Below, in pieces: positions 54,852-64,000 of a DNA stretch of 64,000 nt. The position numbers and the translations under genes were made by a program. The DNA is from Pratylenchus scribneri (lineage: Eukaryota; Nematoda; Chromadorea; Rhabditida; Pratylenchidae), in the NCBI GenBank assembly GCA_030063045.1, contig JAQSEB010000031.1, positions 1,364,001 through 1,428,000 on the forward strand, given 5' to 3'. The notes beneath the pieces are model-generated. The model saw nothing but the letters and a program-made list of their open reading frames with translations. It searched no databases and was not told the origin of the DNA. How positions within the stretch are numbered: the first letter of the stretch is position 1; each line of letters begins with the position of its first letter.

Positions 54852-57648
54852 TCACCAAACTGCACATCTCCTCTCTGGGTTCAATTTGGCGCCGGCTGGA
54901 CAATGAAAAGCCTTGGCAAATTCTGGTTGATTCACAACAACACCATTCACTCGATATCGATACGGCGAATGTGGATCAGTTAGAATTTGTCGAATCAATG
55001 TTTCTGGTTTTGTATGGCCGCACCTTATTAGATTTAAATGAATATAATTGAGAAATATTAAATGCTTTTCCTTACCATGTTTGCGCATAACTTATGAAGA
55101 ATAATTGTTCATTGTCGTATCGCTCAAAACCGGGCAGTCGCTTTTCCTCTCGGCCCAATTTCCGTAAATAGGCTCGATAGGCGGCCAATGCCTGTTTTAT
55201 TCCCCCATTATCGGCTATATTTTCCCCTTGGGTGAGAATGCCATTCACCCGCAAATTCGTGTCTGGCACTTCGAATGAGGAATATTGGTCAATTATGCAT
55301 TTCTGCAAATTAATTAATTAATTCCTCATTTTTAATTCCAATCCACTTGCCTTCCTTTCGATGAATCTATTTTGGGTGCTTGGATCCCACCAATCCTTCA
55401 AATTGCCGATTCCATCAAATTGTGCCCCCTGGTCATCGAATCCATGTGTGATTTCATGTCCAATCACCGCCCCAATTCCACCGTAATTGACCGCTTTTGG
55501 GAATGATTGATCAAAGAAAGGTGCCTGCAAAATTGCCGCGGGGAATGCTAAAATTGAAGGAATAATATATTTTGGCAATTTTAAACGAACTAATTGCATT
55601 TTTGACGCCAGAATAGAATGCATTCACGACGGCACTGCTTGTGCCGAATTCCTCTCTGTCCACCTCCTCAATCAATCGACGGAATGCTTTTTTCTGTGCC
55701 CAAATGCTGGCTTTTTCAACTTGTAATGCATAATGGTCCGTTGAATCCAATGTGAAATTTTCATAATATTCGTCCAATTTCGTGTCGTTGTAGAGGAAAT
55801 CGGGGAATCCAATTAAACTTAACATTTGTTCAGCTAAAAATAACCAAAAATTGTTCAATTCTTCAATCAAATCCACCTTTTTCCAATGCCGTTTCCTTTG
55901 TTCCTTTGTCCATCCAATCATTCAATCCCAACATTTCCCTAAATGACATTCTCAAATCTTCGATCATTTCCAGTGCCGCCGCCTTGCTCGACCGATCGAA
56001 ATGTTTTCTCACGTACATTGCCCCGCTCGCATAACTCATTCTGGTCGATGCGGCCGATGAACAATCTTTCCATCGGGGACTTTTTGCCTTTTTGCCGAGA
56101 AAATCGCGCAAAAATTCCTGTTGAATGTCATCGTATCGTTCATCCAATTGGAAGGACCAGGCTGAGGCATATCTCCAAAACACATAATTGGCCACAATTC
56201 TTTTGTCTGTTCGCCGTAAAAGGTCAGAAAGTCGATCGAAGAATTCGGGCTCGGCCAAAATGACCTCGGGATCGGAGGCCAAATAATCGCGCATATCCTC
56301 TGGGACAAGCCATTGGAAATAAATGGTCCAATTCATCAATGGGAATATTCCATTCATGTCAGAAAGGCGGCGAACATTGTACCTGAATGAATGATTAAAT
56401 AATAATGAATGAATGGAAATATTCAATTGAACGAACATTTTTGTGTAATTTCTCCTTTCCTCATCCGGTACCAATATTTGGGCGAATTCCTTCTCAAACT
56501 GGACAATTTCGTCCACCTCCTTTCCAATTTCCTCCTTCGATCGTGCCAATCCAGCATCGGCCGCAAATGAATGAATCTAAAATAGAATGAAATTAATTTA
56601 AATGTCAATGTCAATATCCCTTATCCCACCTTTTGTTTCATATAATTTGCGTATGCCTTCATCTGTTTTCCATGCCTTGTTTCATTCAAATAATAATCCC
56701 TTGCTCCGGACCCCAATCCCAATCCGCCCTGGTCAAAATTCAATAATCTTCGGCTAACATTCTTTTGGTCCAATGAAACATAAACATCAATAAAAACGTC
56801 GATTGCCCTGGATTGGCCAACATCCACCAACAATTTGGTCAAATCGAAATTATCCGAATGCCATTTTGTGCGATGAATTATTGGCCAAAATCCGTATTCC
56901 TCAATTCGGTTCAACAATTCCGAACTTTTTCGTGCATTCAAATCCTGCACATCCATACAACCTTTGTACAATGATTTCAATTGATTTATGGCACGAGAGG
57001 AGGAGGGCTCCGGGTCTTCGAATAATTCTATAAAAATTAATTTATGTTTTGTTTTGACTAATTTGATTTGGATTTACCCCTCATTTCATTGTTCACTTTT
57101 TCGCGCAATTCACTAAAATGACCGTAGGAAGTGAGATCATCTGGGATGGGATTATTTGCTACCCATTTGCCGCAGGCAAACTCAAAAAAATCTACAAAAA
57201 TGAAATATAAATCATTTTTTGGGTATAATTCACCTTCGCATGGATCGACCCTCTCATCAACGGATTGCCGAAAAAGGGCGGCAGCCCTTTGGAATCCGGG
57301 GCCGGCGTCCACTTCGATGATTTGATTTTCAAGTCGATTTTCCTCTTGAATTGGTGGTAATGGATCGTGAAGGGAAAGCATTGGATGGGCCATCATTGGA
57401 GGGGGGTGGGGCAATAAATGGCGATTGGATGGGATGGATGAGGAAAAATTGGCATTCAAATGGAGGGGAGAGGGTGGTCGAGAAGCGGATTGGCCCTTTT
57501 CATCTGGAGGAGAACATTAATTGAATGGAAAATGAATTGTAAAAACCATTTTGGGCAGCCGGCATTGAACGCATTGAGGGAAGGCAGGTGGCAACGGGGC
57601 CTCCAAGCAAGAAAAGTGCCGTGGAAAGAAGCAAAGCAGAAGGAGACA
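54852..57648 (-). CDS. Secreted M13 metallopeptidase (neprilysin family)
   Basis: A zinc peptidase that cleaves small peptides at hydrophobic residues. ATG at 57648 gives a cleavable signal peptide (MSPSALLLSTALFLLGGPVA), so it is secreted rather than membrane anchored. A Pro-rich linker leads to the M13 N-domain (DERVDPCEDFFEFACGKWVA). The catalytic part has VNAFYSGVKN, AFPAAILQAPFFD and GAVIGHEITHGFDDQGAQFD (HExxH zinc site). GENIADNGGIKQALAAYRAY gives the ExxxD third zinc ligand. The tail HCPAGAKLNPERRCAVW carries the conserved C-terminal CxxW. Ten or so exons. All catalytic residues are intact. Nematodes have many nep genes and the orthologue is not assigned. Confidence 0.92.
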
Positions 57649-59593: not shown

Positions 59594-60299
59594 TTAAAGG
59601 AAAGGTTTGAGCGTATTTGTGGCACAAAGGACTGAATATTGGACGACGGTGAGCTGAAGGGCCAATTGTCTACCTAATTCCATTCTTTTGCCAGCATCCC
59701 CCTCCTTGGCCAATTCAGTTATCTTAAATTGAATTTTGATTATTCCTTTAATATTTATTTTCCCCACCTTTTGCCCAACGGCGGCCATCACCGATGCGGA
59801 ATAAGTGTCATCATCGGAAAGGGAGAAAAGGACATGCCGCTTTTCTGGCTCCTTTTCTGCCAGTCCCATTGCCGGATTAATGAAGCATTGGTCAATTTTA
59901 CGGAGTCGTCGATTCCCAAATTCAGGTCCACCCGAAATGGCCAAATGAAGGTCGAAATTGTGGGATTGTTGGAGGAAAAGTTTGGATTGCTTTTCCAAAT
60001 TGGACATTTGTTGGAGGGCAGCCGCCATTTCGGCCGGATATTTTGAATGTAATTCAATGATGGATTCCTTTGTTTGGCCCAAATAATCGATGAGAAGTTT
60101 TTGTGCAAAAATTGTGGCATTTATTGGAAGAAGGGGCGAATCGGCAAATGACCGGGCCAATTCGGCCCAATATTGGCCAACAGCTTTGTGCACCTTTAAA
60201 TAAATGAATAAATACAAAATAATAATTAAATTACAGCCAAATTGTCATGATCGAATAAATGTTCATTGACAAATGGGATTTCATATCGGGAATGGTAGC
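59594..60299 (-). pseudogene. Glutamate carboxypeptidase II-like (NAALADase/FOLH1) gene, 3' end only
   Basis: Only the C-terminal, transferrin-receptor-like dimerisation domain is present. The upstream exon (to about 60297) reads CYHSRYEIPFVNEHLFDHDN, matching the YHS..E motif after the active site in this family. Then come HKAVGQYWAELARSFADSPL, ECFINP-type CFINPAMGLAEKEPEKRHVL and a final exon ending TNTLKPFL at 59594. Two short introns are spliced out. Directly upstream of CYHS, in frame, is a stop codon, and no splice acceptor lies between it and the hairpin at 60304. The catalytic zinc-binding domain is absent from the window. I conclude the gene is interrupted here by insertion, rearrangement or misassembly. 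Confidence 0.75.
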
Positions 60300-60303
60300 A
60301 GCA

Positions 60304-60346
60304 TTAAGCCTCATTTGACTGCACTATGCAGTCAAATGAGACTTAA
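60304..60346. repeat. Hairpin at the junction of the broken gene and the accessory block
   Basis: CTCATTTGACTGCA (60310-60323) pairs perfectly with 60327-60340 across a CTA loop. Outside it, TTAAG and CTTAA pair again after one mismatch, giving 19-20 base pairs over 43 bp. It sits exactly between the truncated carboxypeptidase exon and the accessory gene cluster. Confidence 0.9.
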
Positions 60347-60374
60347 GAATTTAAAATAAATCTTTAAGCATTTA

Positions 60375-60896
60375 TCAAATTGATCGAAAAATGTCTACAA
60401 TATTATAAATTGGAGTACATATTAAACAATTATTATTAAATGATTTAAAACAATCTATATGTAAAGTATGTGCCATGGAGTTATTACATAACATTAATTC
60501 TTTATTATTATATATTCCCCGATTGAAACAAATGCAGCAGAATGCTTCTTCATTTTTATTTGGTCTATCCCAATACCAACCCAAATTACATAATATATCA
60601 TATCGCCGCCATTTATAATTAACTGCTCCCCAGAAATGGCTCCGTTCCTTTAATAGTTTTCTCATTTTTTGTGCCAATACAATAACTTGATCTTTTCGTT
60701 TATTTTTAACTATACGTAATAATTTAGCATTGGGAATTGATAAAGCCTTAGAAGATAATAATGGGCCTTCTTTAGGGTGATCTAAAAAATTAAATGTTTC
60801 TGCCCAATCTATATCAAATTTTTCTTTATAAGGTATAAAATGAGCAATCTCTGCGATTAATTCATTTGGTAATCTAATAGGCATAACTAAATTCAA
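60375..60896 (-). CDS. F-box-like plus C-terminal RING-like protein, paralogue A
   Basis: An intronless frame of about 170 residues. It can start at 60896 or at the inner ATG 60884; the latter has TTTAG only two bases upstream and is preferred. The N-terminus, RLPNELIAEIAHFIPYKEKF, has the look of an F-box helix (LPxELxxEIxxxIP). The middle is Lys/Arg/Leu-rich (RKLLKERSHFWGAVNYKWRR). The C-terminus has a Cys/His cluster (CCICFNRG ... LCNNSMAHTLHIDCF ... CLIC), consistent with a variant RING finger. Paralogue B at 61797-62285 shares the whole layout at roughly 55-60% identity by eye. No known family is recognised. It is next to a SKP1 gene, the partner of F-box proteins. Confidence 0.7.
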   Translation of the reverse strand: MNLVMPIRLPNELIAEIAHFIPYKEKFDIDWAETFNFLDHPKEGPLLSSKALSIPNAKLLRIVKNKRKDQVIVLAQKMRKLLKERSHFWGAVNYKWRRYDILCNLGWYWDRPNKNEEAFCCICFNRGIYNNKELMLCNNSMAHTLHIDCFKSFNNNCLICTPIYNIVDIFRSI

Positions 60897-60983
60897 ATTA
60901 AAACAGTTTGATTATAGAAGAAATATTTTAAAGAATTAACTTTTAATAAATTAAAAGAAAAATTTTATTCAAAATTTTAATAA

Positions 60984-61685
60984 TTAATGATTAATTCCAA
61001 ATTCGAGTCGGATGGCATCCTTTTCTTCTTCTGTAATGTCCTATAGCTTTATATTTAAATTAATTATTTATAATATTCTTACATCAGGAAGGGACAACAT
61101 TTGCCGTATTTCTTCAGGTGATTTGTTCATGATTTGTCGAGCACATTCTTGGGCACCTGAAATAAAATGTATTATTTATTGAGAAAATCGAAAAAAACAA
61201 TAAAAGTAGAGTGAAGAGATATCGAGGAAATTTGCTGCCGAATAGTATTCCTTAAGAGTTTCAAAATTAACATCAAAAAAGTTTCGTTCCCAATCCGTTA
61301 GGGCGAACCAAACACGCTGAAAAATTTATTAATTTCATTTTAAATTTATACCTCTGTGGTGATAGGATCCTCTTTGATCACAGGATCCGGTTTATCATTA
61401 TGTTGATCCAACCATTCGACGACTTTTTCAAAGCAGATTTTTGAGATGCCATTCAAAGGAAAAATAAATGGTTTCTCGGTAATTTTGCAATGATCAAATG
61501 TCTCTTCCAAACTCAAATTACTTTTCCACATATTCTTAAATGTTTTGGATTTCATCATCAAATGCCATGGCACCTGAATTAATAGTGAAAATATTATTTT
61601 TATTTTGTTATACTTCGACAATTTCGCCTTCACTAGTACGACATTTAATTTTGCCTTCAAATTGTTCGCTAATGTTATTTACCAT
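60984..61685 (-). CDS. skr: SKP1-like SCF ubiquitin ligase adaptor
   Basis: SKP1 links F-box proteins to cullin 1. Five exons are readable. They give IKCRTSEGEIVEVPWHLMMK (BTB/POZ-like N-terminus), FPLNGISKICFEKVVEWLDQ with HNDKPDP, and DWERNFFDVNFETLKEYYSA with ANFLDISSLY. The tail is CARQIMNKSPEEIRQMLSLP with DDITEEEKDAIRLEFGINH, stopping at 60984. The fold-defining blocks are all kept. The usual final ENxWCEE, which contacts the F-box, is replaced by EFGINH. The internal block that normally reads VPLPNV is IFPLNG. Nematodes have expanded skr families. It is the only gene in this cluster with clear introns plus a strong cellular homologue, and it stands between the two F-box-like genes, 100 bp from one and 112 bp from the other. 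Confidence 0.85.
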
Positions 61686-61796
61686 TATATAAACTTAAGG
61701 ATAATTTTTAATTATTAAATGTTAAAGATATTTATAAAAGTAACTATTCATTAGTATGAATGGAATTAAAAATAAAATTTTATTCAATTTTACAAA

Positions 61797-62285
61797 TTAA
61801 TGTTGATCATAAAGAGGACTGCAAATTAAACAATGAGGAAAAGATTTAAGACAATTTTTATGTTGTGTATGTGCTTTTGTTTTATTACATATTACCAATT
61901 CATTAGGATCATAAATGCCCCACTCAAAACAAATACTGCAGAGTGTTATTTCGTTTTTCGCTGGCAATGAAAAATACCATCCTAATTCACATAATAAATA
62001 ATATCGATGTCTTGTGTTGTCAAACGCCTGGCGAAATTTCATTTTTCCACTTAATAATTTTCTCATTTCTTCAGCTAATTCTATACATTTATTATATCGC
62101 TTCTCTTTTACTTTGCGTAGCAGTTTAGCATTTGGAATCGATAAGCCAGTTGACGATAATAAAGGTCCCTCTTTTGGGTGGTCTAGATAATCATAGAATT
62201 CCTCTCCATGCTCCTCATATTTAGATTTATAAGGAATAAATTTTGCCAATTCCGCGATTAATTCATTTGGAAGTATTTTTGACAT
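61797..62285 (-). CDS. F-box-like plus C-terminal RING-like protein, paralogue B
   Basis: An intronless frame of 162 residues starting MSKILPNELIAELAKFIPYK. ATTTTAG ends two bases before the ATG, as for paralogue A. The C-terminal cluster reads CSICFEWGIYDPNELVIC, then HTQHKNC and CLIC, giving the spacing C-x2-C-x11-C-x5-H-x2-H-x2-C-x6-C-x2-C as I read it. This fits a RING-variant more than a classical RING. The conserved middle (DHPKEGPLLSST.LSIPNAKL) is shared with paralogue A. Function is inferred only: F-box-like adaptor with possible E3 or zinc-binding activity. An AATAAA signal lies just after the stop. Confidence 0.7.
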   Translation of the reverse strand: MSKILPNELIAELAKFIPYKSKYEEHGEEFYDYLDHPKEGPLLSSTGLSIPNAKLLRKVKEKRYNKCIELAEEMRKLLSGKMKFRQAFDNTRHRYYLLCELGWYFSLPAKNEITLCSICFEWGIYDPNELVICNKTKAHTQHKNCLKSFPHCLICSPLYDQH

Positions 62286-62400
62286 AACTAAAATCTAATT
62301 AAAATCAATTTTTAAAATGATTAAATATATTTAAGAAATAACTTTAGAAGTAAATAAAAAAATGATAAAAAATTTTATTCAAAAATATTATGAATTGAAA

Positions 62401-62643
62401 TTAATTGTTAATATTTTTCGTTTTGAGGACACGGGGGCAATTGCAAATGGCTGGTGGAACACATGAACATGGAGGTTGTTGATAAGTGTTTAGAACAATT
62501 TCTCTATTTTCGTTATTAATCGCCTGGAGTCCAACCGGATTGATTAAATAGCGACCGTTTTCTGTAGTATCTATCCTAAATCCTTGAAACGGTTGAGGAT
62601 TATTTGGATTTGGGTTTGAAGAATTTTGTCCATTGTTACTCAT
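62401..62643 (-). CDS. Small Asn/Pro-rich protein of the accessory cluster
   Basis: An 80-residue intronless frame with an Asn/Pro/Gln-rich N-terminus (NNGQNSSNPNPNNPQPFQGF) and a Cys-rich turn (CSCVPPAICNCPR). ATTTTTAG lies a few bases before the ATG and AATAAA just after the stop, as in its neighbours. The middle (GRYLINPVGLQAINNE) has no family I recognise. Support comes from the operon-like signals and spacing (116 bp to the next gene, 110 bp to the previous). Confidence 0.55.
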   Translation of the reverse strand: MSNNGQNSSNPNPNNPQPFQGFRIDTTENGRYLINPVGLQAINNENREIVLNTYQQPPCSCVPPAICNCPRVLKTKNINN

Positions 62644-62752
62644 TGTAACTAAAAATAAAAAGCAAAAATTTTTTGAATATCAATAAGATATAATTTGATA
62701 AAAACAAATATGAAAATTTAAAAGGAAAAAAATTTAATTTTATTATAAAAAT

Positions 62753-63356
62753 TTAATTTAGATTTAATATGTGTTTTTCTTTCCCATCCAAAATAAAGAC
62801 TTGGTCTTCCATGAATTTATGTGCTTGTTTTGTAACATAAAGTTGATCAGGAGTTTGGCCAGTTAATTTATCAATTGCTTCTTTTGGTAGATTAAATAAC
62901 TATAAATTAATTATTCAAATTATTCAAATTAATAAATCTAACGGAAGTTTTGTTTTGAGCATTCCAATCTATCGCCTTACTCCGCTTTTCAAATTCATCA
63001 ACATCATTTAATATTTTTTCCGCAGCACTTGAAATTGAATTAGTAGGAGACATACTCTTTTGATGATAAATATTAGAATTATTCCAAGCACTATTTGGAG
63101 AATTGTAAGAATTATCCCAATTATTGTCAGGAGAATTGCTAATTTGACTATTGCTGCTTTCTCCGACTGTTGAAGAATTTATGTATCTTTTGAAAGAATT
63201 TGGGTCATCTCCCTTGAATTTTACAACTGAAACTTAAATAATAAAGTTTAAATAAAAATTAATACTTGTATATCCATCAAAATTTTTTTTATCAAACAAT
63301 GAAGATTTAGTTTTTTCTTTCAGATAAAATGATTTGTTTTGTCCTGAATTGAACAT
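62753..63356 (-). CDS. Ser/Asn-rich protein of the accessory cluster
   Basis: A three-exon gene read from ATG 63356, which is preceded directly by TTTTAG. The first exon gives MFNSGQNKSFYLKEKTKSSL. The middle is Ser/Asn/Asp-rich and probably disordered (SSNSQISNSPDNNWDNSYNS). A short conserved-looking motif region, SAAEKILNDVDEFEKRSKAI, follows. The last exon reads LFNLPKEAIDKLTGQTPDQL and ends KEKHILNLN. No domain is recognised. It is the first gene of the minus-strand series and divergent from the plus-strand zinc-protein genes, with about 97 bp between starts. Confidence 0.55.
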
Positions 63357-63453
63357 CTAAAATATTTGCTATATAAATAGAAACTTATAAAATATTATTA
63401 TGAAAAATAATCATTAATAATTCTGATAAATAAAGATTAAAATTTTATTCGTA

Positions 63454-63648
63454 ATGTGTGATTTAAAATGTTGCAATTTTTGTCTTTGCCATTATATAAA
63501 CTGTAAATATTGCAATAAGAAAGGATTAATGCATTTCAATTACTATAAAAATGAAGTCAAATGTCCAAAATGTGGCGGGCCTATGCGATCAGATTTAGGC
63601 AACCGGAATCAGGGCTATATAAAGCAAAATTATATTCATGAATCATGA
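63454..63648 (+). CDS. Small Cys-rich (zinc-binding-like) protein 1
   Basis: A 64-residue intronless frame. Cysteines form pairs as in zinc knuckles: CDLKCCNFCLCHYINCKYC, then KCPKCGGPM. It shares CCNFC.CHY..C..C and KCPKC with the next gene, so the two are paralogues. No family is recognised; treble-clef or RING-like binding is inferred from spacing. ATG follows AAAATTTTATTC closely. Confidence 0.6.
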   Translation: MCDLKCCNFCLCHYINCKYCNKKGLMHFNYYKNEVKCPKCGGPMRSDLGNRNQGYIKQNYIHES

Positions 63649-63658
63649 TTAATTTGCA

Positions 63659-63841
63659 ATGGAAAATTGCAATCATTCTATTAAGTGTTGTAATTTCTGC
63701 CCTTGTCATTATCATTACTGTTCAAAATGTAAGAAAATGCTTCAGCATTTTGCAATTTTATCGACATTTGAAAATTTGGATGACTATATAAAATGTCCAA
63801 AATGTTTTGATTATATATTGATTAAAAATAAAAATGTTTAA
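63659..63841 (+). CDS. Small Cys-rich (zinc-binding-like) protein 2
   Basis: A 60-residue intronless frame (NHSIKCCNFCPCHYHYCSKC ... DYIKCPKCFDYI), paralogous to the preceding gene and 10 bp after its stop. Its last 8 bp (63834-63841) overlap the start of the ATPase gene in another frame, an arrangement unusual for nematode nuclear genes and common in DNA viruses and virus-like elements. Confidence 0.6.
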   Translation: MENCNHSIKCCNFCPCHYHYCSKCKKMLQHFAILSTFENLDDYIKCPKCFDYILIKNKNV

Positions 63842-64000
63842 CTCACCATTTACTTTAATTTTATGTGGCGCCACGGGTAGTGGTAAAACAAAATGGCTCC
63901 TAAAATTTTTGAATCATACTGAAGAATTGATAAATCCTCCTCCAGTAAAAATATTATATTGTTATGGTGAAATGAATGAATCTATAATAACTTTAAAAAA
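63834..64000 (+). CDS. P-loop ATPase, N-terminal part (runs off the window)
   Basis: ATG 63834 starts a frame that is still open at the window end. The first 20 residues include FTLILCGATGSGKTKWLLKF, a clear Walker A (GATGSGKT), followed by ILYCYGEMNES. The combination of a very N-terminal Walker A with a downstream hydrophobic-Tyr-Gly-Glu block resembles packaging-type or A32/FtsK-like ATPases of Polinton-like and viral elements, as far as I recall. This is an inference from about 55 residues. Other AAA/P-loop NTPases remain possible. Confidence 0.6.
   Translation, partial: MFNSPFTLILCGATGSGKTKWLLKFLNHTEELINPPPVKILYCYGEMNESIITLK

Follow-up and report, generated by a model that had tools for sequence, protein, structure and literature searches.

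The 64,000-nucleotide window analyzed here (C31:1364001–1428000, on contig JAQSEB010000031.1) belongs to the genome of the nematode Pratylenchus scribneri (GCA_030063045.1; 227 Mb, 276 contigs). Near its right end, a SKP1 gene lies between two paralogous genes, here called A and B. This block makes up the left end of a Maverick/Polinton element, whose cargo probably forms an adaptor of the SKP1–cullin–F-box (SCF) type of ubiquitin ligase and thereby redirects protein degradation in the host. The initial annotation, made from the letters of the window, had described SKP1 between two paralogues with the N-terminal motif LPNELIAE, C-terminal Cys/His clusters and spacers of about 100 bp. This layout is correct; the spacers are 99 bp (A–SKP1) and 111 bp (SKP1–B). 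It had also proposed that a mobile or viral element carries its own SCF-type adaptor. The element is real. The adaptor part holds for SKP1, which is identified by sequence; for the F-box, the evidence consists of a sub-threshold match in a sister cassette and the conservation pattern between A and B.

A cassette inside a Maverick/Polinton element

Maverick/Polinton elements are characterized by terminal inverted repeats (TIRs) starting with AG, 6-bp target-site duplications (TSDs), an rve integrase, a type-B DNA polymerase, an A32-like packaging ATPase, an adenovirus-type protease and a double-jelly-roll major capsid protein. When 30 kb beyond the right end of the window were read (stretches L009, L010 and L011), an element of 26,202 bp was delimited, from window position 60297 to L011:3498. 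Its TIRs start with AG, both inverted ends beginning AGCAGCATTAAGCC, and the element is flanked on both sides by AATGGT, a 6-bp TSD. To the right of the cassette, the plus strand encodes an A32-like packaging ATPase (Pox_A32, E = 2.3e-07), an rve integrase with a chromodomain (rve, E = 2.8e-09; Chromo, E = 2.4e-06; each above the cut-off), a long putative minor-capsid gene, a capsid-like gene of 476 aa, and an adenovirus-type, adenain-like protease (Peptidase_C5, E = 4.2e-06). Two pieces of a type-B DNA polymerase (DNA_pol_B_2, E = 1.8e-11 and 1.7e-07) are on the minus strand. The P-loop ATPase and the two Cys-rich mini-proteins that had been noted on the strand opposite to SKP1 were recovered there.

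The capsid-like gene (L009:6619–8046) has no match in Pfam or PHROGs, a chance-level match in NCBIfam, and no match among IMG/VR viral contigs. Its protein has 70 database relatives, some named from the plant-parasitic nematodes Heterodera, Meloidogyne, Globodera and Ditylenchus. It is treated as the putative major capsid protein (MCP), capsid names being given here by position and size.

Two homologous sites are free of the element, on C59 (95–97% identical) and C8 (94–95%), and the left-flank and right-flank matches there have exactly 6 bp in common. This indicates that the cassette sits inside a mobile element. Both sites are close copies of a host gene, uninterrupted there, and at C31 the element splits a coding exon of that gene: the exon is open across the joined flanks with a single AATGGT, and with the element in place a stop occurs at the junction. 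The N-terminal and middle parts of the host gene are in the right flank (L011:3499–6455). The left flank (window 59594–60296) contains the C-terminus, which resembles a transferrin-receptor (TFR)-dimer-like domain (E = 2.6e-05, 24.6 bits; cut-off 27.1). The gene presumably encodes a NAALADase/glutamate-carboxypeptidase-II-like protein. The element-type genes, the TIRs with TSD and the empty sites together show that this is a mobile, virus-like element.

Structure and origin of SKP1

The SKP1 gene has five exons (61685–61614, 61573–61352, 61316–61199, 61156–61083 and 61040–60984, minus strand) and four GT-AG introns of 35–42 bp. Its product exceeds the curated Pfam cut-offs for both Skp1 (E = 6.9e-12, 45.5 bits; cut-off 22.3) and Skp1_POZ (E = 9.7e-05, 22.9 bits; cut-off 21.9), and matches human SKP1 in the PDB (E = 7.6e-19). 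The C-terminal residues 138–180 are the best-conserved part in seven of eight comparisons.

All four intron positions are present in the host SKP1-like locus L033. At the other host SKP1-like loci (eight were looked at in all), the intron positions covered by the matches agree; the fourth is seen in L025 and L033, the only loci where the match extends to it. In the host SKP1-like loci, intron 2 spans several hundred bases, versus 35 bases in the element SKP1. None of 17 other element proteins has a match within 1.5 kb of the host SKP1-like loci L026 and L032–L041. Canonical SKP1 is split at other places, as judged from the breaks between matches. A phylogeny of 28 rows groups the element and SKP1-like sequences in a single clade (100/100), with canonical and human SKP1 outside it; L037, of which just the first half had been recovered, was left out in advance. 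Support for the monophyly of the element rows is weak (67/74), and C82 sits on a long branch.

Based on the intron positions and the phylogeny, the element SKP1 and the divergent SKP1-like genes of this nematode are shown to share an origin, introns included. For the element SKP1, direct derivation from canonical SKP1 is disfavored by the different gene splits and by the tree. Given the weak monophyly of the element rows, the direction from host to element is inferred, with the host SKP1-like family as the most likely source. Since the introns were kept, the gene would have been captured as DNA rather than via cDNA. The divergent SKP1-like genes are much expanded in the genome. Several occur as pairs 5–7 kb apart, mostly distant from capsid genes.

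Features of the paralogues

A and B are 56–57% identical in protein and 72–73% in DNA, the latter over two long blocks. The sequence TTTAG-TT-ATG is found right at the start codon of both genes, and AATAAA motifs can be read in the spacers. In an alignment of the paralogue family (25 rows), five columns are invariant and 13 nearly invariant; eight of them are the Cys/His of the C-terminal cluster. The paralogue of the C82 cassette fits the strict C3H2C3 ligand spacing of RING-H2. A and B fail the strict spacing and fit it once C-x5-H is allowed. Shuffled sequences reach the RING-like pattern 0–1 times in 20,000 per protein. Judged from these residues, the C-terminus of the paralogues fits a RING-H2-like ligand pattern.

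Profile searches had been proposed in the initial annotation. SKP1 exceeded its cut-offs in them, the ATPase matched Pox_A32, and all matches of the paralogue family to RING, PHD and F-box profiles stayed below the curated cut-offs. The best RING match was Sina_RING, with 17.7 bits versus 29.3 required. The C82 paralogue (L052:2812–3234) matches F-box as a whole protein with E = 0.0052 and a Sina RING at its C-terminus with E = 0.004. Its first 51 residues give the strongest sub-threshold match, covering almost the full F-box profile (E = 6.6e-4, 19.9 bits; cut-off 20.5). As even this best score does not reach the cut-off, the paralogues are called F-box-like and not F-box proteins. Among ten N-terminal pieces, two from paralogues other than A and B weakly match the first half of the F-box profile. 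A genome-wide F-box search (150 of 164 candidates scored) returned 59 places, and the paralogue family was absent from them. The PDB search with the 51-residue N-terminus returned nothing. Protein searches found four relatives with B and eight with the B alignment, none bearing a function name.

The identity between A and B is unevenly distributed. It is 15/20 in residues 1–20 and 17/20 in residues 41–60, versus 9/20 in residues 21–40 and 24/52 in residues 61–112. The two well-shared stretches are those that would make up an F-box, residues 21–40 being the loop between them and 61–112 the middle region. Such a pattern is expected if both proteins bind the same SKP1 and recognize different targets. 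An F-box-like N-terminus is thus suggested for the paralogues, not proven.

Distribution of the cassette

Nine elements were delimited at both ends, with lengths of 26.07 to 26.30 kb (C31, C40, C20, C78, C200, C160, C15, C4 and C55). In eight of the nine, the first 84 bases are the same (100%; 99% in C4) and adjoin gene A. The order B–SKP1–A is seen in eight elements (C31, C40, C15, C160, C20, C78, C200 and C4), each time just within the same left end, and the host DNA outside is unrelated between sites. The C55 element contains A only. Three further loci (C1, C221 and C82) contain SKP1, a B-type paralogue, and more distant paralogues (one in C1 and C221, two in C82); gene A was not found there within reach of the searches. 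The TIR search did not find the ends of these three elements. Gene order (C1 and C82) or only a nearby capsid gene (C221) served to assign their cassettes to an element. The order of the core genes over 8 kb is alike in C1, C82 and C55, with the ATPase of C1 represented by two overlapping matches.

Co-location was scored within 20 kb. All 54 paralogue matches were merged into 38 loci, and pieces of capsid genes into 88 loci. The 56 SKP1-like places were picked by hand from 138 matches, leaving out canonical SKP1 and some weak places. A capsid gene is near 22 of the 38 paralogue loci, and all of these capsid genes belong to one group. Eleven of the 56 SKP1-like places are near this cassette-bearing capsid group. 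One more (C87), which lacks an adjoining paralogue, is near a different capsid group, and C37:749982 lies just beyond 20 kb from a capsid locus of the cassette-bearing group.

At all 11 SKP1 loci near the cassette-bearing capsid group, a paralogue is within 3 kb of SKP1. B-type paralogues, defined by an identity to B of at least 75%, are present at all 11, versus none of the 11 paralogue loci of this group that lack SKP1. As B-type paralogues are found only where SKP1 is, B looks like a dedicated partner of SKP1. Elements with paralogues but no SKP1 suggest that these proteins can work with SKP1-like proteins of the host as well, and that one lineage gained SKP1 as a dedicated partner.

Selection on the cargo genes

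Among eight spliced SKP1 copies (C40, C78 and C200 were excluded from this set), no internal stop was seen, and the ratio of nonsynonymous to synonymous substitution rates (dN/dS) is 0.16–0.42 in 28 pairs, with p from 0.17 (closest pair) to 2.4e-14. The dN/dS of B is 0.16–0.44 (10 pairs), and its 11 B-type matches contain no stops. SKP1 and B are therefore under purifying selection. For A, dN/dS is 0.21–0.41 in three pairs that exclude the broken C4 copy (C4:3383287–3383757), which has an in-frame stop; the value of 1.42 for C31–C4 was discarded as meaningless, because the codons are shifted after that stop. B and SKP1 of C4 have no internal stops. The core genes show dN/dS of 0.02 (MCP, first 213 codons), 0.05–0.08 (integrase) and 0.05–0.07 (ATPase), and the minor-capsid-like gene, with 0.16–0.19, is near the cargo values. 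The cargo is kept, yet its proteins evolve faster than most of those for particle and integration.

Between C31 and C55, dS of gene A is 0.25 versus 0.32–0.58 for core genes. This single comparison hints at an exchange of cargo between elements. In the alignment, the donor is GC instead of GT in introns 1 and 2 of C1 and C221 and in intron 2 of C82; these may be GC-AG introns or alignment slips. The reading of SKP1 in C82 starts ahead of an ATG and has no stop codon.

Comparison with known systems

Viral use of the host SCF machinery is also seen in poxvirus ankyrin/F-box proteins and in the F-box-like polerovirus protein P0. Poxvirus ankyrin/F-box proteins use host SKP1. P0 likewise uses host SKP1. 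In the descriptions consulted, neither comes with a viral SKP1, unlike the element with its own SKP1.

The chlorovirus PBCV-1 encodes a viral Skp1, A039L, and the F-box-like ankyrin proteins A682L and A607R (PMC7019647). It is alike in being a DNA virus with Skp1 and F-box-like partners. It differs in belonging to an unrelated virus group with algal hosts, and its partners are ankyrin-repeat proteins with the motif at the C-terminus (PMC7019647). The partners in P. scribneri are small, carry the motif at the N-terminus and end in a RING-like tail; the genes are adjacent, and the SKP1 introns are common to host genes. Nematode Mavericks are known to carry host-derived cargo genes (PMC10680173). 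Those of Widen et al. 2023, as described in PMC10680173 and PMC12941216, share integrase, polymerase B, capsid genes and host-derived cargo with the P. scribneri element. Their cargo is different: wosp proteases and krma kinases there, SKP1 and F-box-like/RING-like paralogues here. The earlier remark that no system of this composition has been described was therefore too strong in principle. What appears to be new is the combination of SKP1 and paralogues on an animal Maverick; viral Skp1 with partners and host cargo of Mavericks were already known. A literature search for Maverick or Polinton with Skp1, F-box, cargo or ubiquitin ligase, which mostly covered journals other than subscription ones, found no title or abstract that describes this composition. 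By the terms searched, the accessible parts of PMC11071308 and PMC12062965 contain nothing on Maverick-borne SKP1.

In Caenorhabditis, the F-box-like domain of the antidote KSS-1 is not conserved in sequence; it was recognized from its structure, and its binding to SKR-1 was demonstrated (PMC12680543). SKP1-related genes number 20 in C. elegans and 23 in C. tropicalis (PMC12680543). The KSS antidotes and the SKR family resemble the present case as fast-evolving nematode F-box-like proteins that act via SKP1-related proteins and whose F-box is cryptic in sequence. They differ in being toxin-antidote genes of the host genome, not genes on a Maverick with its own SKP1 (PMC12680543).

Possible functions of the cassette

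Most likely, the element captured SKP1 from host DNA, and A and B would dock on the element SKP1 via their N-terminal F-box-like segment. The element SKP1 would link A and B to a host cullin. The RING-like C-terminus might recruit a ubiquitin-conjugating enzyme (E2) or the target; the receptor would then be a ligase itself, or its tail would be the substrate-binding part. The product would be an element-controlled SCF-type ligase that clears proteins with which the host acts against the element; genome-defence or antiviral factors are the most plausible targets. A more specific version of the SCF-adaptor reading is held only tentatively: a captured member of the divergent host SKP1 family, with relatives that function in nematode SCF ligases, would be combined with dedicated F-box–RING fusion receptors. 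The element would then supply its own SCF, with receptor and RING in one polypeptide, and destroy or disarm host antiviral or genome-defence proteins.

Several observations weigh against an SCF-type adaptor. A and B themselves have no match to the F-box profile, and in three scans of N-terminal pieces and family members a match at any level was obtained for 1 of 18, 1 of 10 and 2 of 10, never above the cut-off. In view of KSS-1, whose F-box-like domain lacks sequence conservation, the missing Pfam match of A and B is weak evidence. Two AlphaFold2 models of middling confidence (mean predicted local distance difference test 66.7 and 75.9), compared with the PDB by Foldseek and VIA-align, show no F-box fold and no clear match of any kind. 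This structural comparison, of the kind asked for in the initial annotation, is uninformative, and the absence of F-box proteins from the match lists is not evidence against an F-box. The models contain a helix at the N-terminus, a further, long helix and a small end that resembles a zinc finger. The distribution adds to these points. Sixteen of the 38 paralogue loci have no capsid gene within 20 kb (C45, C48, C155, two on C41, C60, C87, C159, C110, C107, C101, C59, C37:1445885, C150, C189 and C15:1577049), and may be genes of the host, source genes or remnants of elements. A paralogue within 20 kb is missing at 10 of the 32 capsid loci in the cassette-bearing group, and 11 paralogue loci near this group have no SKP1 within the same distance. 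These facts indicate that the SKP1/paralogue module is optional and its parts separable. Moreover, the core is conserved far more, and part of the divergence of the cargo could reflect relaxed constraint.

The paralogues might instead be stand-alone RING-type ubiquitin ligases or zinc-binding regulators, with SKP1 as separate decoy cargo which competes with host SKP1-like proteins and does not bind the paralogues. The RING-H2-like ligand pattern, the weak RING/PHD matches by profile and structure, the 11 loci without SKP1, and the lack of an F-box match in A and B would all suit this. The constant neighborhood of SKP1 and a B-type paralogue (within 3 kb at 11 of 11 loci), the sub-threshold F-box match of the C82 paralogue, and the location of the stretches common to A and B in the two halves of the putative F-box speak against it, and we regard it as rather unlikely. 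Still less probable is an addiction or toxin-antidote module, in which F-box-like proteins degrade a linked poison, as the Caenorhabditis KSS antidotes do, and so retain the element in the population. Nematode antidotes are fast-evolving and F-box-like without sequence conservation, and bind several SKR proteins (PMC12680543), and one toxin arose from a Maverick-associated protease family (PMC12941216). However, no toxin-like gene was recognized in the cassette, although some small open reading frames (ORFs) of the element are unexplained.

That the genes are functionless host DNA picked up passively is very improbable. The shared origin of SKP1 with host genes, the in-frame stop in A of C4 and the solitary A of C55 would agree with it, but the cassette is kept at eight insertion sites, the eight spliced SKP1 copies and 11 B-type matches are free of internal stops, and purifying selection on SKP1 and B rejects it. 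An ordinary host gene cluster next to the element, conceivable as SKP1-like genes are numerous in this genome, can practically be dismissed, because the cassette lies between TIR ends with a TSD and the homologous sites on C59 and C8 are empty.

If the cassette is indeed an SCF-type adaptor, Mavericks arm themselves with host ubiquitin adaptors, in connection with the arms race of F-box and SKR proteins in nematodes. It would be a second, independent case of a virus-encoded Skp1 with partners beside the chloroviruses, and would bear on the reason why SKP1-like families are expanded in nematodes. The general idea that virus-like transposons carry host genes becomes a testable module here: three small adjacent genes with many copies, clear selection and known partners.

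Other features of the element and its surroundings

Table 1. Features at the right end of the window (positions are those of the window).
Feature	Position	Strand	Basis or remark
Host gene, 3' part, transferrin-receptor-like dimerization domain	59594..60290	-	TFR-dimer-like C-terminus, under cut-off
Target-site duplication AATGGT, 6 bp	60291..60296		Second copy at L011:3499–3504
Maverick/Polinton element, left part	60297..64000		TIR and TSD; continues to C31:1450498 (L011:3498)
Left terminal inverted repeat, begins AGCAGCATTAAGCC	60297..60386	+	Comparison of inverted ends
Gene A, F-box-like N-terminus and RING-like C-terminus, 169 aa	60378..60884	-	ORF, family alignment; stop codon excluded
SKP1, five exons, 180 aa	60984..61685	-	Pfam, PDB match, splicing
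Gene B, paralogue of A, 162 aa	61797..62285	-	ORF, family alignment; 61800–62285 without stop codon
ORF80	62401..62643	-	Retained in sister elements
Putative multi-exon gene of the element	62756..63356	-	Read off the sequence; limits approximate
Cys-rich mini-protein 1	63454..63648	+	ORF; comparison with sister elements
Cys-rich mini-protein 2	63659..63841	+	ORF; comparison with sister elements
A32-like packaging ATPase, start	63834..64000	+	Whole gene L009:834–1448; Pox_A32 E = 2.3e-07

Within the left TIR, a near-perfect hairpin of 20 bp is located at window 60304–60346. In the right arm (L011:2–445 and the region from L010:9398 to L011:1717), an ORF shows a weak match to the MA3 domain (E = 6.4e-4, under the cut-off), and two ORFs of the same region begin alike with LSPIPE. 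These are perhaps further host-derived cargo. From L009:9456 to L010:358, the minus strand contains ORFs with a signal-like start and one hydrophobic stretch near the end; they have no significant Pfam match, and their place and appearance suit a membrane protein of Mavericks.

Genome-wide, at least 88 capsid-like loci are seen in about four identity groups (87–100%, 56–58%, 50–51% and 41–44%), and the genome is very rich in Mavericks. Farther left in the window, at about 54852–57459 on the minus strand, pieces of a host gene have the look of what we take to be an M13 (neprilysin-type) peptidase, with the motif HEITH.

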